Of a stretch of 64,000 bases of DNA, positions 16,165 through 62,225 are shown in pieces. Source of the stretch: Phocaeicola abscessus CCUG 55929 (GTDB lineage: Bacteria; Bacteroidota; Bacteroidia; Bacteroidales; Bacteroidaceae); contig NZ_HE997182.1 of NCBI RefSeq assembly GCF_000312445.1, forward strand, positions 370,689 to 434,688. Direction: 5' to 3'. The position numbers were made by a program, and so were the translations under genes. The notes under the pieces were generated by a model. That model saw nothing but the letters and a program-made list of their open reading frames with translations, searched no databases and was not told the DNA's origin. Within the stretch, counting starts at the first letter, position 1. The number at the start of each line of letters is the position of its first letter.

Positions 16165-16326
16165 GTCGATGTAGTTTGTTGCGAAATTAACTATTTTAAG
16201 CCAATATCGCATCATAAAATCGGATATTTTGCAGACGAAAGCCGGGAAGGCGGCTTTTTCCGCCCCGATCGTTCCTCGCTCCTCCGAAGCTGCCGGGCAA
16301 TCTTCGGAAAGAGACTGAACTCCCTT

Positions 16327-16388
16327 CAAAAAGATACTAATCTTTCTTCAAAAAGAAACTAATCTTTTTCCGAAAAGATACTAATCTT
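16327..16388. repeat. Three tandem copies of a palindromic ~23-bp unit
   Basis: The core AAAGATACTAATCTTT recurs at about 16329, 16351 (one change, GAAACT) and 16374, spaced 22-23 bp, each an imperfect palindrome AAAGAT-n4-ATCTTT. It lies in the 396-bp gap upstream of the TlpA-like gene and could be a repeated operator. Apart from this and the terminator at 16497, the gap holds nothing recognisable. Confidence 0.75.
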
Positions 16389-16496
16389 CTGTAAAGAATT
16401 GCCGAACTATTTTAAAAAAAACTTCCGACCGAATTTCGAAGCCGTTCCGACAGGGCTTCCGACGATTGCCGTTCTCTTCCGGACAGGCCATAAAAG

Positions 16497-24437: not shown

Positions 24438-24454
24438 AGCGATACATAAAAAAT

Positions 24455-24527
24455 GGAGTACCGCTGTACTCCAACCTTTGTTAACCTTAAATCTAATACT
24501 ATGAAAAAAATCACAATACAAATGTAA
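24455..24527 (+). other. Hairpin plus 8-codon mini-ORF downstream of trhP
   Basis: A 7-bp hairpin (ggagtac-cgct-gtactcc, 24455-24472) is followed by aacctttgttaacctt and a short frame at 24501-24527 reading MKKITIQM then TAA. The hairpin may be the trhP terminator. The text around ttaaccttaaatc and the ATG looks conserved-element-like rather than random, but I cannot name it. The rest of the 24438-24763 gap shows only the terminator at 24712. Confidence 0.4.
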
Positions 24528-35062: not shown

Positions 35063-35126
35063 CGCGACAAACGGATACGACGCAACGGCCATCCCCTGGC
35101 AAAAGCCTCGAAACATTTAAAAAATG

Positions 35127-35196
35127 CCTTTGACCGGCTTAGCAAGCTTCAAAAAGTTATTTTGGACCCTTTGACTGACTTAGCAACCATTAAAAA
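35127..35196. repeat. Two imperfect 29-bp direct repeats
   Basis: cctttgaccggcttagcaag at 35127 and cctttgactgacttagcaac at 35168 each continue into a ...caaaaa/ttaaaaa end; they are 41 bp apart. They lie between spmAB and rlmL in otherwise featureless sequence. Confidence 0.55.
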
Positions 35197-48823: not shown

Positions 48824-50164
48824 CTATAATTCGCGGAAAATTTCACCTGCCGTAGGATGAGGAAAGACGTAACGCTTCCATTCTGCTACTTTCGAACGAT
48901 TTTCTACGGCCATCCCTGCCAGGATAATCAATTCCGAAGCCGGATTGCCCAGGATGTGCGCGCCAAGCACCGTGTCATCCTCTGCAACCAACAATTTGCA
49001 AAGGCCGTTCACGCCCTCGTTCTCTGCGACAAAACGGCCGGAAAAAGTCATCGGCAGCTTCACAACCCTGTAAGCGACGCCATCCCGCTGAGCGTCTTCC
49101 TCCGTCAAACCGACTCCCGCTATCTCCGGATTGGTATAGACGACGCTCGGAACAGCTCGATAGTTCATCCGCTCGGGGACTCCAAGGATGTGATGGACGG
49201 CTACTTCCGCTTCTCTCACGGCCGTGTGCGCCAATAGCGATACGCCGTTCAAATCGCCGCAGACATAAACTCCCCTGACCGAAGATTCCAAATGCTCGTC
49301 CACTTTGATATTCCGACCGTTCAGTTCCACGTTCAAATTCTCCAAACCGAATCCTCGCATGACGGGACGACGCCCTACGCTCATCAAGAGTTTCTCGGCA
49401 ACCACTGATCCCGACCCTTCCGCATTCTCATACGAGACGGTAATGCCGCTTTCGCCCGAAGCGACCCCCACGACCTTTACTCCCAACAGGAAGCGTACTC
49501 CGCGTTTCGCATACTCGCCCTGCAACATGGCAGACAGCTCGCGATCCATCGGCCCGATGAGCTTATCCAACATCTCGATCACCGTGACCTGCACGCCCAA
49601 AGAGGAGAAGAACGAAGCAAACTCCATCCCGATCACGCCGCCGCCGATAATAGCTAAGGATGCAGGGATTTCCGTATTCTCCAACGCTTCCCGATGCGTC
49701 CAATAAGGCACCTTATCCATGCCGGGAATGGGAGGTACGAACGTCTCGCTACCGGTACAAAGCAATAAGTTTTCACACTCGTAGAATTCCTCACCGCATC
49801 GAATCGTGTTCTTATCGACGATCCGCGCTTCTCCCTCCACCATCGTCACGTTCGCGGCTTTCAAGCGGGCCTTGATACCCAATACCAATTTGCGGACCAC
49901 TTTCGCCTTTCGCTTCATGATCTGCTCCAGGTCGCAAGTAGCTTCAGGGACGATTACCCCGTACGGTCTGGCATGTTTGGCATAGTCGTAAATCTTCGCC
50001 GAATAAAGCAATGCCTTGGTCGGAATACAGCCTTCGTTCAGACAAACCCCTCCCATCTTTCCTTTCTCGAAAAGCACGACACGCAGCCCGGCTCTTCCGG
50101 CACACTCGGCTGCCGTATATCCCGCAGGACCGCCGCCGACAATAGCTAATTGATAGTTAGACAT
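48824..50164 (-). CDS. lpdA: Dihydrolipoamide dehydrogenase
   Basis: A 446-residue class I flavoprotein disulfide reductase from the ATG at 50164 (MSNYQLAIVGGGPAGYTAAE). It has the redox-active pair in GGVCLNEGCIPTKALL, a NAD-binding IIGGGVIGMEFASFFSSLGV, the FAD motif GVYVCGDLNG, and the C-terminal FPHPTAGEIFREL holding the catalytic His-Glu. It re-oxidises lipoamide in 2-oxoacid dehydrogenase, glycine cleavage or branched-chain complexes; no partner genes are nearby. Upstream Met codons to 50224 are less likely starts. Confidence 0.92.
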   Translation of the reverse strand: MSNYQLAIVGGGPAGYTAAECAGRAGLRVVLFEKGKMGGVCLNEGCIPTKALLYSAKIYDYAKHARPYGVIVPEATCDLEQIMKRKAKVVRKLVLGIKARLKAANVTMVEGEARIVDKNTIRCGEEFYECENLLLCTGSETFVPPIPGMDKVPYWTHREALENTEIPASLAIIGGGVIGMEFASFFSSLGVQVTVIEMLDKLIGPMDRELSAMLQGEYAKRGVRFLLGVKVVGVASGESGITVSYENAEGSGSVVAEKLLMSVGRRPVMRGFGLENLNVELNGRNIKVDEHLESSVRGVYVCGDLNGVSLLAHTAVREAEVAVHHILGVPERMNYRAVPSVVYTNPEIAGVGLTEEDAQRDGVAYRVVKLPMTFSGRFVAENEGVNGLCKLLVAEDDTVLGAHILGNPASELIILAGMAVENRSKVAEWKRYVFPHPTAGEIFREL

Positions 50165-50285
50165 AGCGCTAAAGGTTAAATCGTTATTTAATCCATTCAT
50201 TTCTCTTCCGCAACACGGGCACAAGATACGAAAATTATATGGCTTTCCCTTTTATTCGATAAAAGAAGTTCATCGAAAACCTGAC

Positions 50286-50646
50286 CGGACACGTCCCGAA
50301 CCCCGTCGGCGAGGTTGTTTATCCCGTCGGATAGGTAGTACAACCTATCCGGATACGTCCGGAACGTCAAATTTGAGGTTGTCTAACGTATCCGGCGAGG
50401 TCCGGAACGTCAAATTTGAGGTTATCCAACGTATCCGGCGGGGTCCAGAACGTATCCGACGGGATCCGGGACGTCAACGAACAGGTTACCCAACGTATCC
50501 GACGAGGTCCGGAACGTCAAATTTGAGGTTATCCAACGTATCCGGCGGGGTTCGGGACGTGTCCGACGGGGTCCGGAACGTCGACGGACAGGTTACCCAA
50601 CGTGTCCGACGGGGTTCGGAACGTCGACGGACAGGTTGCACCACGT
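50286..50646. repeat. Array 1: about 17 modules of 21-22 bp, non-coding
   Basis: The stretch falls into consecutive modules of 21-22 bp starting at 50286, 50307, 50328, 50349, 50370, 50391, 50412, 50433, 50454, 50475, 50497, 50518, 50540, 50561, 50582, 50604 and 50625. Typical module cores are cgacggggtccggaacgt and aaatttgaggttatccaacg. Many modules end in AACGT and carry GGTT or GGTC in the middle. Pairs form a 43-bp higher-order unit. There are no unique spacers, so it is not CRISPR. It lies between the divergent lpdA and ybeY. A 98-codon frame across it only translates the repeat. Confidence 0.9.
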
Positions 50647-50847
50647 CGACGAATCGATCTCGTACCTAAACGGTAGAGATTTTTATCCCCTTTGAAGCAA
50701 ACACGTATTCCTTATGCGAGATCTACACTTTTCAAGGAATACCGTTTGCATTGATACTGGAGCTCGTATTGAATGATGCTGATAAACATCGAAAAAAGAA
50801 AGGATAAATATATGTTCAAACCCTTTTCGTGCATTAAGAAAAATGGG

Positions 50848-50855
50848 TAACTTTG
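50848..50855 (+). promoter_or_regulatory. -7 box (TAACTTTG) for ybeY
   Basis: Consensus box 19 bp before the ybeY ATG at 50875. Confidence 0.7.
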
Positions 50856-50874
50856 GCGTACAAATGCAAACATT

Positions 50875-51309
50875 ATGATCAGTTATCAAAGCGAAGATAT
50901 CGGAATGCCCGCCATAAGCCGAGCAAAAATAACCGAATGGATCAAACGGGTGGCCGCTTCCTACGAAAAAAAAATAGGAACCATTGCTTACATTTTCTGT
51001 TCGGATGAGAAAATCTTAGCCATCAACCGCCAATATCTGCAACATGATTACTATACGGATATCATCACTTTCGACTACTGTACAGGTTCCAGCCTCTCGG
51101 GCGATATTTTCATCAGTTTGGATACCGTACGCTCCAATGCAGAGCTCTTCGGGCAAACCTACGACAGAGAGCTGCATCGGGTTCTCGTTCACGGCATTCT
51201 CCACCTTTGCGGAATCAATGACAAAGGTCCGGGCGAACGCGAAATCATGGAAGCAGCAGAAAACAAGGCCCTGTCCCTGCTCGAATCGGGGAACGTTTCA
51301 AACGGTTGA
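50875..51309 (+). CDS. ybeY: rRNA maturation RNase YbeY
   Basis: A 144-residue metal-dependent endoribonuclease for 16S rRNA 3'-end processing and ribosome quality control. Signatures: FCSDEKILAINRQYLQHDYY, TDIITFDYC, SGDIFISLDTV and HGILHLCGINDKGPGE. The usual HGxLHLxGyDH ends here in NDK instead of DH, as I recall for Bacteroidetes members, so the third metal ligand differs from the E. coli enzyme. It has its own promoter and is separated from mnmG by a second promoter. Confidence 0.9.
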   Translation: MISYQSEDIGMPAISRAKITEWIKRVAASYEKKIGTIAYIFCSDEKILAINRQYLQHDYYTDIITFDYCTGSSLSGDIFISLDTVRSNAELFGQTYDRELHRVLVHGILHLCGINDKGPGEREIMEAAENKALSLLESGNVSNG

Positions 51310-61633: not shown

Positions 61634-61841
61634 ACTGCATTTCCGAATATTATCATTCCCTTCAGTTTCATGGTTATAAAAACAAATCGATCGGTCTATA
61701 CAAGAGCTATTCTGCCCGTCTTTCCCTTCTCGTCGCCATTTTAAACAGGCGTACGTGTAAAAAGGCTATAACGTTGCAATAAAACGACAAGCTAAACACA
61801 ACTCACCGGAAAATCACCGGGGATCGGATAGTATTTCCTTC

Positions 61842-62062
61842 CGTTGACGTCCGATAACCCGACGACGGGGTTGTACAACCTCAACGATGAGGTTCGGAAC
61901 CTAAACGGACACGTCTCGAACCCCGTCGGATACGTCCGGAATAGATCCGACGCGGTTGTTTATACCGCCATTGACGTCCGATAACCCGACGACGGGGTTG
62001 TACAACCTCAACGGATCTATATTTAACCCCAACGGAGAGGTTACCCGACCCCAGCGATGGGA
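61842..62062. repeat. Array 2: about 10 modules of 21 bp, non-coding
   Basis: Consecutive 21-bp modules start at 61842, 61863, 61884, 61905, 61926, 61947, 61968, 61989, 62010 and 62031. A two-module block (gacgtccgataacccgacg, then ggggttgtacaacctcaacg) occurs at 61846 and again, exact, at 61973. Several modules contain the palindrome GGTTGTACAACC. The 21 bp at 61906-61926 differ by one base from 50286-50306 in array 1. The array lies between polA and ychF; the other parts of the 61634-62268 gap show no gene. Confidence 0.88.
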
Positions 62063-62225
62063 TCCAGAATGTCGTTGCGGCCATTTCCTGCAAACAGGAT
62101 AGCGAATGAAGTACTACGGCCCTCTGCGAACAATGTTTTCGCCAAAACTTCACGTCGGAGGCGACCTTCGGAATTCCTTACGTATATTATTTTGATCAAC
62201 GTGGGCTTATTTATCACATTTACAT

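Follow-up and report, generated by a model that had tools for sequence, protein, structure and literature searches.

The DNA between lpdA and ybeY in the 64,000-nucleotide stretch analysed here (the window) carries a tandem array of short palindromic modules, and it is one of about thirty related arrays dispersed over the intergenic DNA of this genome. The grammar of the arrays is ACST, 8 bp, ASGT, then 5 or 6 bp. The reading we prefer, to which we give a probability of roughly 0.45, is that 16-bp dyads set two helical turns apart would be read as duplex DNA by a putative dimeric protein. The parts of the region, its neighbours and a second array in the window are as follows.

50278 to 50653, plus strand: satellite array, about 17 modules with the grammar ACST-N8-ASGT-N5/6
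50261 to 50280, plus strand: left leader AAAAGAAGTTCATCGAAAAC, common to the left ends of arrays L012 and L028
50299 to 50361, plus strand: conserved core; 20 of the 29 arrays can be aligned over it
50362 to 50637, plus strand: right repeat block, 21- and 22-bp modules mixed
50638 to 50674, plus strand: degenerate tail that includes an ATCKATYTY variant; by eye, several other arrays also end on the right with this variant
48824 to 50164, minus strand: lpdA (dihydrolipoyl dehydrogenase family; PF07992, PF02852), left neighbour, transcribed away from the array
50875 to 51309, plus strand: ybeY (PF02130), right neighbour, transcribed away from the array
about 61841 to 62075 (end approximate), plus strand: second, more degenerate array of the same family, place C1:432594 of the genome search

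A sequence-only reading of this DNA had placed the array at 50286-50646, which is nearly right, with about 17 modules of 21-22 bp, AACGT and GGTT/GGTC cores, pairing into 43-bp units and no spacers, all of which is borne out by measurement. Autocorrelation over 50278-50653 reaches 0.725 at 107 bp, 0.631 at 43, 0.571 at 64, 0.452 at 86, 0.439 at 21 and 0.381 at 22, each above the maximum (0.369) of all 500 dinucleotide-preserving shuffles over lags 5-119. The 21-22-bp peak, whose absence would have spoken against the earlier reading, is thereby present. TRF reports periods of 21, 22, 43, 64 and 107, where 43 is an alternation of 21 and 22 and the two longest are further sums. The array has 57.7% G+C against 46.7% in the window. 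What needed correction in that reading is the anatomy: the unit is a 16-bp dyad, ACST-N8-ASGT, plus a 5- or 6-bp linker, and all 26 token steps of the array are in phase over the 364 bp measured. The row of modules is also not uniform, since a core of about 63 bp (about 50299-50361), common to 19 others among 29 arrays and often having a repeat block to its left, is set apart and contains the near-perfect palindrome GGATAGGT(A/T)GTACAACCTATCC. The leader aligns with those of L012 and L028 over 29-33 bp at 93-100% identity, and occurs in 3 of 29 arrays overall. The second array of the window had been missed.

The modules abut without unique spacers, and a CRISPR array is rejected on that ground. 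A 98-aa open frame does cross the lpdA-ybeY array, and open frames of 82-165 aa cross 12 of the 29, yet 21- and 22-bp units mix so that frames are not kept; a coding origin is rejected on that ground, these frames are treated as spurious, and the earlier statement that the array has no coding sense stands.

To see how far the family extends, the available 2,536,876 bases of the organism's own genome (85% complete) were searched, giving 68 matches that we group into about 31 places, 2 of them inside the window, which shows the repeat to be interspersed. A profile of the 43-bp unit was run on 30 loci, namely the 29 places outside the window and the lpdA-ybeY array. Arrays were found in 29; L036 (C4:249947) has 0 profile matches and was excluded, and the second array of the window is outside this set of 29 measured arrays, which total 9,521 bp with a median of 306. 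As to whether the arrays sit only between genes, 28 of the 29 lie between flanking frames with an overlap of at most 23 bp once array-crossing frames are set aside; for the remaining one, L035, the overlap with a frame of 541 aa is about 80 bp, and no context class is assigned. Many related tandem arrays at unrelated intergenic loci are what is meant by an interspersed intergenic satellite, and that is the pattern seen here. Orientation along the contigs is mixed by eye.

The setting between two divergent genes had entered the earlier reading as a divergent promoter region, and it is the one point in favour of a local operator array controlling the lpdA-ybeY pair. The comparison of loci does not support such a role. 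Gene context is convergent for 10 arrays, divergent for 7, tandem for 11 and unclassed for 1, so copies at all three kinds of site make the lpdA-ybeY setting look incidental. About 30 more copies stand beside other genes, and the lpdA-ybeY gap of G053, one of the three closest relatives by the lpdA-ybeY-mnmG region, lacks the own-genome family and has by eye a single-core element of a different family (family A, below). The arrays are no promoter feature of lpdA or ybeY, and we regard local control of this gene pair as very improbable. No promoter-like site was found at 50150-50900 by a scan of sigma-70 type, a type that does not cover Bacteroidetes promoters. Upstream of ybeY, and outside the array, there is a TAACTTTG box at 50848-50855 that we take to fit the Bacteroidetes -7 motif.

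The regularity of the grammar can be put in numbers. Across the 29 arrays, 648 of 664 tetramer-to-tetramer steps are in phase, meaning a step of 12, 9, 10 or the listed sums of these, against 164 of 1,555 once the letters are shuffled. Half-sites keep a rigid distance (12 in 249 cases, 11 in 6 and 13 in 0), and the linker step is variable (9 in 61, 10 in 205). Many arrays are tripartite, with a left block of units of about 22 bp, a palindromic core and, to its right, a block in which 21- and 22-bp units mix. In 8 arrays that we class as degenerate, the division into young and degenerate arrays being made by eye, 36 cores represent 34 distinct sequences. With duplicates collapsed, as in all module conservation and pairing counts, the 42 distinct modules of these arrays have T at +15 in 41 and G at +14 in 34, and the intervening letters vary. 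Within the core shared by 20 arrays, tetramer positions vary by 0.041 against 0.108 elsewhere (one-sided p = 0.018). Because tetramer conservation is measured on modules anchored by neighbouring tetramers, in arrays that were found with a dimer profile, part of this regularity comes from sampling, and the G053 spacings given below share this limit.

A palindromic unit may be symmetric either because it folds or because a dimer binds it, and the positions where C or G can face each other across a dyad bear on this choice. If the symmetry served hairpin stems, facing letters should pair. In degenerate cores they are complementary in 18 cases and not in 17 (Fisher p 1.0), in degenerate linkers 17 versus 24 (p 0.34), in younger cores 22 versus 28 (p 0.56), and in younger linkers 46 versus 34 (p 0.096). 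RNAalifold on the module alignment gives no consensus pairs. Local hairpin pairing is thus unsupported as the cause of the symmetry, and, judged from these sequence comparisons, duplex half-sites for a putative dimeric protein fit it better. The array as a whole does fold far better than shuffles, with z of -7.2 and -6.9 on the two strands, which is accounted for by its parts being mutually inverted; strong folding on both strands nevertheless counts against the duplex reading and leaves room for single-strand roles. One such role is that of an RNA-level element whose tandem hairpins would terminate transcription or protect mRNA ends. Beyond the folding, this would suit the somewhat enriched convergent gaps (10 of 28 classed arrays, compared with 75 of the genus sample's 417 gaps of 100 bp or more; p = 0.043), a convergent excess in that genus sample too (14 of 43 arrays, p = 0.027, from 47 arrays of which 4 have no gene on one side in the sample), and a family of other species, AAACG-N6-CGTTT, that often has by eye a TTCG loop. 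It fares badly with the unpaired facing positions and the missing consensus pairs, with the arrays that lie between divergent and tandem genes, and with the direction of the neighbours, as a hand count on the array strand has the left gene directed towards the array in 14 of 28 cases and the right gene in 17 of 28. Nor is there a terminator-like site at 50150-50900, or a match above the gathering score over the lpdA-ybeY array when the window is searched with Rfam 15. We consider an RNA-level element improbable. Rfam matches the window at one place only, 24443-24514 on the minus strand, with FopS, an sRNA family of Bacteroidetes.

The distribution among relatives is patchy. The lpdA-ybeY array has no BLAST match in 39 relatives, and a module profile, R1, run with stricter filters that lose weak matches, matches 0 of 60 other genomes of the genus against 119 matches in the own genome. 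An exact core pattern has 6 matches in genome contigs of scattered taxa, a set that may not include the own record, and we take these for chance. Positions were compared for four own loci, among which rpoC-DUF3467 is not comparable, too small a set for a conclusion on positional conservation between species. In the gap between tRNA-Gln and rsfS (a DUF349 gene flanks the tRNA on its far side) the own genome holds an array within 387 bp, against 46 bp in G074, which by eye hold a terminator-like hairpin and nothing more. This locus was recovered from 2 of seven genomes searched, the other being G067, in which the tRNA-Gln and rsfS matches are 42 bp apart by match positions. A further own array lies between an S41 peptidase and a RecF/SMC-type gene, a gap that is readable in five of seven relatives searched, and in all five (G053, G067, G074, G003 and G073) there is another gene at that place, identified in G053 as 5-formyltetrahydrofolate cyclo-ligase (PF01812). 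As regards a target-site duplication at filled against empty sites, a mark of BrickBuilt-like MITEs, the nearest species are about 74% identical in the compared genes, and flanks beside the gap do not align. We read the arrays at these two loci as probable gains in the own lineage, as against loss in the relatives.

A likeness does turn up at greater distance. Over 393 genomes of the order, R1 matches 6: the own one, two with one weak match each, and three species that belong to a single genus of another family (11 matches in G153, 14 in G255 and 3 in G340), from each of which one locus was inspected (L313-L315). The G255 array mixes 21- and 22-bp units, has the linkers CCG, GGAT, GTAC, GCAC and GCAT, of which the first three are own linkers on the opposite strand, and aligns with an own array at 73.6% over 246 columns. 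BLAST gives 127 bits for the G255 array and 80 for the G340 array, whereas tetramer-preserving shuffles (200 each) reach at most 52.7 and 42.8, and five arrays of other 22-bp families, as shorter queries, score 0-21. The likeness of G255 and G340 therefore exceeds the tetramers. Common descent, horizontal transfer or a shared reader with a longer code may each be its source. In L313 and L315 the homologous arrays of G255 and G340 stand, by eye, beside apparently the same gene, presumably of GH57 type, so that array position may be conserved within the distant genus.

The pitch, as opposed to the letters, is more widely shared. Period 21-22 accounts for 47 of 75 noncoding TRF arrays in 11 genus samples and, outside the family, for 1 of the 7 arrays that four genomes yield (p = 0.018), where the genus samples are non-random, several being stretches on contigs matched earlier, where the own sample takes in the window, and where G038 (2.4 kb) is left out. 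By sample the counts are own 8/13, G053 17/19, G067 7/8, G074 3/6, G073 and G014 together 4/5, G003 3/10, G017 3/5, G011 2/5, G008 0/2, and G004 and G045 0/1 each. The repeat distances in noncoding DNA are as follows: 22, 44 and 66 dominate in G053, G067 has 55, 21, 22 and 44, G003 has 22 and 44 behind a strong 63-66 signal that may be CRISPR, and G011 peaks at 16 with little at 22. G053 has two families of its own. Family A, TCAC-N4-GTGA, occupies 28 distinct places with a spacing of 22 bp in 80 of 80 steps; family B, TSAT-NCGN-ATSA, taken from the best 30 places after scoring 40 of 191 candidates, is spaced 22 bp in 107 of 110 steps and 44 in the remaining three. Counted between exact core matches, 187 of the 190 spacings of both families are exactly 22, and 57 of 59 loci are intergenic, a locus count in which one family-A place appears twice (L224 and L235). 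The third family mentioned above, AAACG-N6-CGTTT, has 6-bp linkers by eye and matches 15 of 61 genus genomes, the own genome not being among the 15.

Unrelated sequences on the same pitch in several related bacteria suggest that geometry may matter more than letters. Generalized, this would make the arrays a class of phased dyad satellites, with one or more unrelated half-site families per species on a two-turn pitch, along which a rapidly co-diverging putative protein, or a set of paralogues, would assemble side by side to organise the chromosome. We think this generalization rather unlikely. A consensus dyad score finds palindromy (p <= 0.05) in only 14 of the 48 arrays of 21-22 bp that were listed, a point against the dyad platform that we prefer.

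Some known kinds of repeat resemble the arrays, and the comparison determines how much novelty to claim. Porphyromonas gingivalis, probably of the same order as the window organism, carries the nearest one. This is the BrickBuilt MITE, described as 19 dispersed, always intergenic arrays making up 0.44% of the genome, each a gapless tandem of 23-nt repeats that vary in number and are non-identical (PMC4596501). The arrays here share the dispersed, intergenic, gapless tandem form; the BrickBuilt consensus AGAYCATARTATCCTCTCRTRTG lacks the ACST-N8-ASGT grammar, and the modules here differ from it by eye, its period is 23 and not a mix of 21 and 22, and it has a leader and a tail with IS5-like terminal inverted repeats, of which none was found here (PMC4596501). 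An all-against-all comparison of 400-bp flanks found no terminal inverted repeat common to the 29 arrays, only a common leader in 3 and a common unique tail in 2 (L012 and L023), and IS ends or a MITE are rejected as the identity of the arrays for lack of a common inverted end.

REP/BIME elements fall into GTAG and CGTC superfamilies. A REP is a palindrome of 20-40 bp that carries an unpaired tag, GTAG or CGTC; most CGTC elements form head-to-head dimers, rarely grouped, and placement is mostly between convergent or unidirectional genes (PMC3733652). Small palindromic units, many intergenic copies, several types per genome and some species-specific families are points in common, and gapless arrays, unpaired facing C/G positions and a RAYT that was not found are points of difference (PMC3733652). 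Tested for a paired REP-type stem, facing C/G positions pair about as often as they do not, the module alignment gives no consensus structure, and the letters CGTC occur frequently in the modules. The Y1/RAYT transposase (Y1_Tnp, PF01797) gives 0 matches in the own genome, 85% complete, and matches in 6 of 14 genomes of a control search; a RAYT-driven REP is rejected on that absence.

A survey of prokaryotic satellites describes dispersed families of short repeats (10-30 nt), for which transposition is suggested, as in Burkholderia and Methanosarcina; where the repeats are longer than 30 nt, it finds transposed non-coding families in just two species (PMC6749651). A unit of 21-22 nt belongs to the short class, so the rarity stated for the longer repeats does not carry over. 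The survey's main text does not contain 'Bacteroid', '21 nt', '22 nt' or 'helical', and the passages seen do not describe a phased dyad grammar (PMC6749651); likewise, among the titles and abstract openings listed by literature searches, there is no description of 21-22-bp phased palindromic arrays in Bacteroidales. With BrickBuilt nearest in kind but different, REPs different and short-repeat satellites known, we file the arrays as a variant of the already known interspersed intergenic satellite, of the BrickBuilt/REP kind, lineage-specific and patchy in distribution, which is our best reading of what they are.

Phages and plasmids were considered as a source. The window array with its flanks has no plasmid match and in phages only a 44-bp match to lpdA, the G255 array has no match in either, and exact patterns give 0, 2 and 0 matches in viral contigs, the 2 being isolated and without arrays. 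One weak plasmid match is in Streptomyces. A phage or plasmid origin is rejected. The Streptomyces plasmid, NZ_CP107925.1, carries at 582-746 of the retrieved locus (L318) a 22-bp array, GCGGGGTCCGGGGCGCAGCCCG, that is 99% regular and has no gene annotation; it is G+C-rich and shows the same 22-bp pitch in another phylum.

A further question is whether anything reads the satellite. The arrays could be a purely selfish or neutral minisatellite-bearing mobile repeat, like BrickBuilt or REP, with a period that continues the founding unit and no host protein as reader; an enzyme that has since been lost or goes unrecognised would have spread it, and slippage would have amplified it. The interspersed intergenic copies agree with this, as do the patchy distribution, the absence of an array where a relative is comparable (46 bp in G074 against 387 at tRNA-Gln-rsfS), the leaders and tails common to some loci, and the runs of near-identical modules inside L027 and L028. 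Copying and homogenisation can preserve a pattern that nothing reads, and recent copying can look like conservation; this is among the strongest counterpoints to the platform reading. Against a selfish repeat, no common terminal inverted repeat is seen among the 29 arrays and no PF01797 enzyme in the 85%-complete genome; also, the account leaves unexplained why unrelated families of related species keep the 22-bp pitch, and why diverged arrays keep their tetramers. We hold a selfish or neutral repeat to be a serious possibility, well short of even odds.

Three points carry most weight for the platform reading: half-sites keep a rigid distance, C/G positions that face each other go unpaired, and unrelated families share a pitch. 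The earlier proposal of a multi-site protein-binding array is supported by the geometry, in which phased dyads have half-sites a rigid 12 bp apart and C/G positions that do not pair, and which fits such an array better than an RNA element. As the dyads recur at close to two helical turns, they all lie on the same helix face. A putative dimeric DNA-binding protein would read each dyad as duplex DNA; phasing would let dimers sit side by side; recognition would keep the tetramers while the letters between them drift; and slippage or gene conversion would make the arrays longer, with some copying route to disperse them. Plasmid iterons and centromere repeats are likewise tandem helix-phased sites on which a protein reads one face. 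Iterons are direct repeats at one origin, and the arrays here are dyads dispersed over a chromosome, so the likeness is in geometry only. The likeliest role is that of a chromosomal multi-site platform, serving organisation or acting as a sink for the putative protein, rather than lpdA/ybeY control.

If geometry is selected while letters turn over, the arrays would point to an unrecognised chromosome-organising system, for which they would offer a simple biochemical handle, in that a single PCR product carries at least ten sites on the same face of the helix. Should they be selfish, they still belong to a dense, dispersed class of satellites: 200 kb of G053 DNA contain 17 noncoding arrays of period 21-22. 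For comparison, the survey, which required at least four repeats, reports a density above 4 satellites per Mb for just 18 of 119 bacteria (PMC6749651). As 7 of the 19 period-22 TRF rows in the G053 sample reach four copies, that comparison is rough.

Several smaller observations concern arrays of other sequence. At 16301-16419 the window has a different 22-bp array, A+T-rich and called noncoding, with a unit near TCTTCAAAAAGATACTAATCTT, and at 35103-35196 a 41-bp tandem array of 2.3 copies, near twice 20.5 bp; period 41 occurs in 3 of 13 noncoding arrays of the own-genome sample. Two further 22-bp families of the own genome are AAATTGTCTGCGCAGAGAATTT-like (L171 15249-15373 and L175 3744-3856, with a strong dyad in L175) and TGCCTATGAAATTTCGATTTCG-like (L179 14369-14410 and L180 7466-7524). 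In G053, several family-B arrays among L241-L254 end by eye in inverted caps, AAGTGATNCG ... CGNATCACTT, and some of these satellites may thus have defined ends. Family-A arrays (L212-L225) are often flanked, also by eye, by B-like modules and an GTTGCCGTATTCATCAGAAGA-like segment, so composite elements exist.
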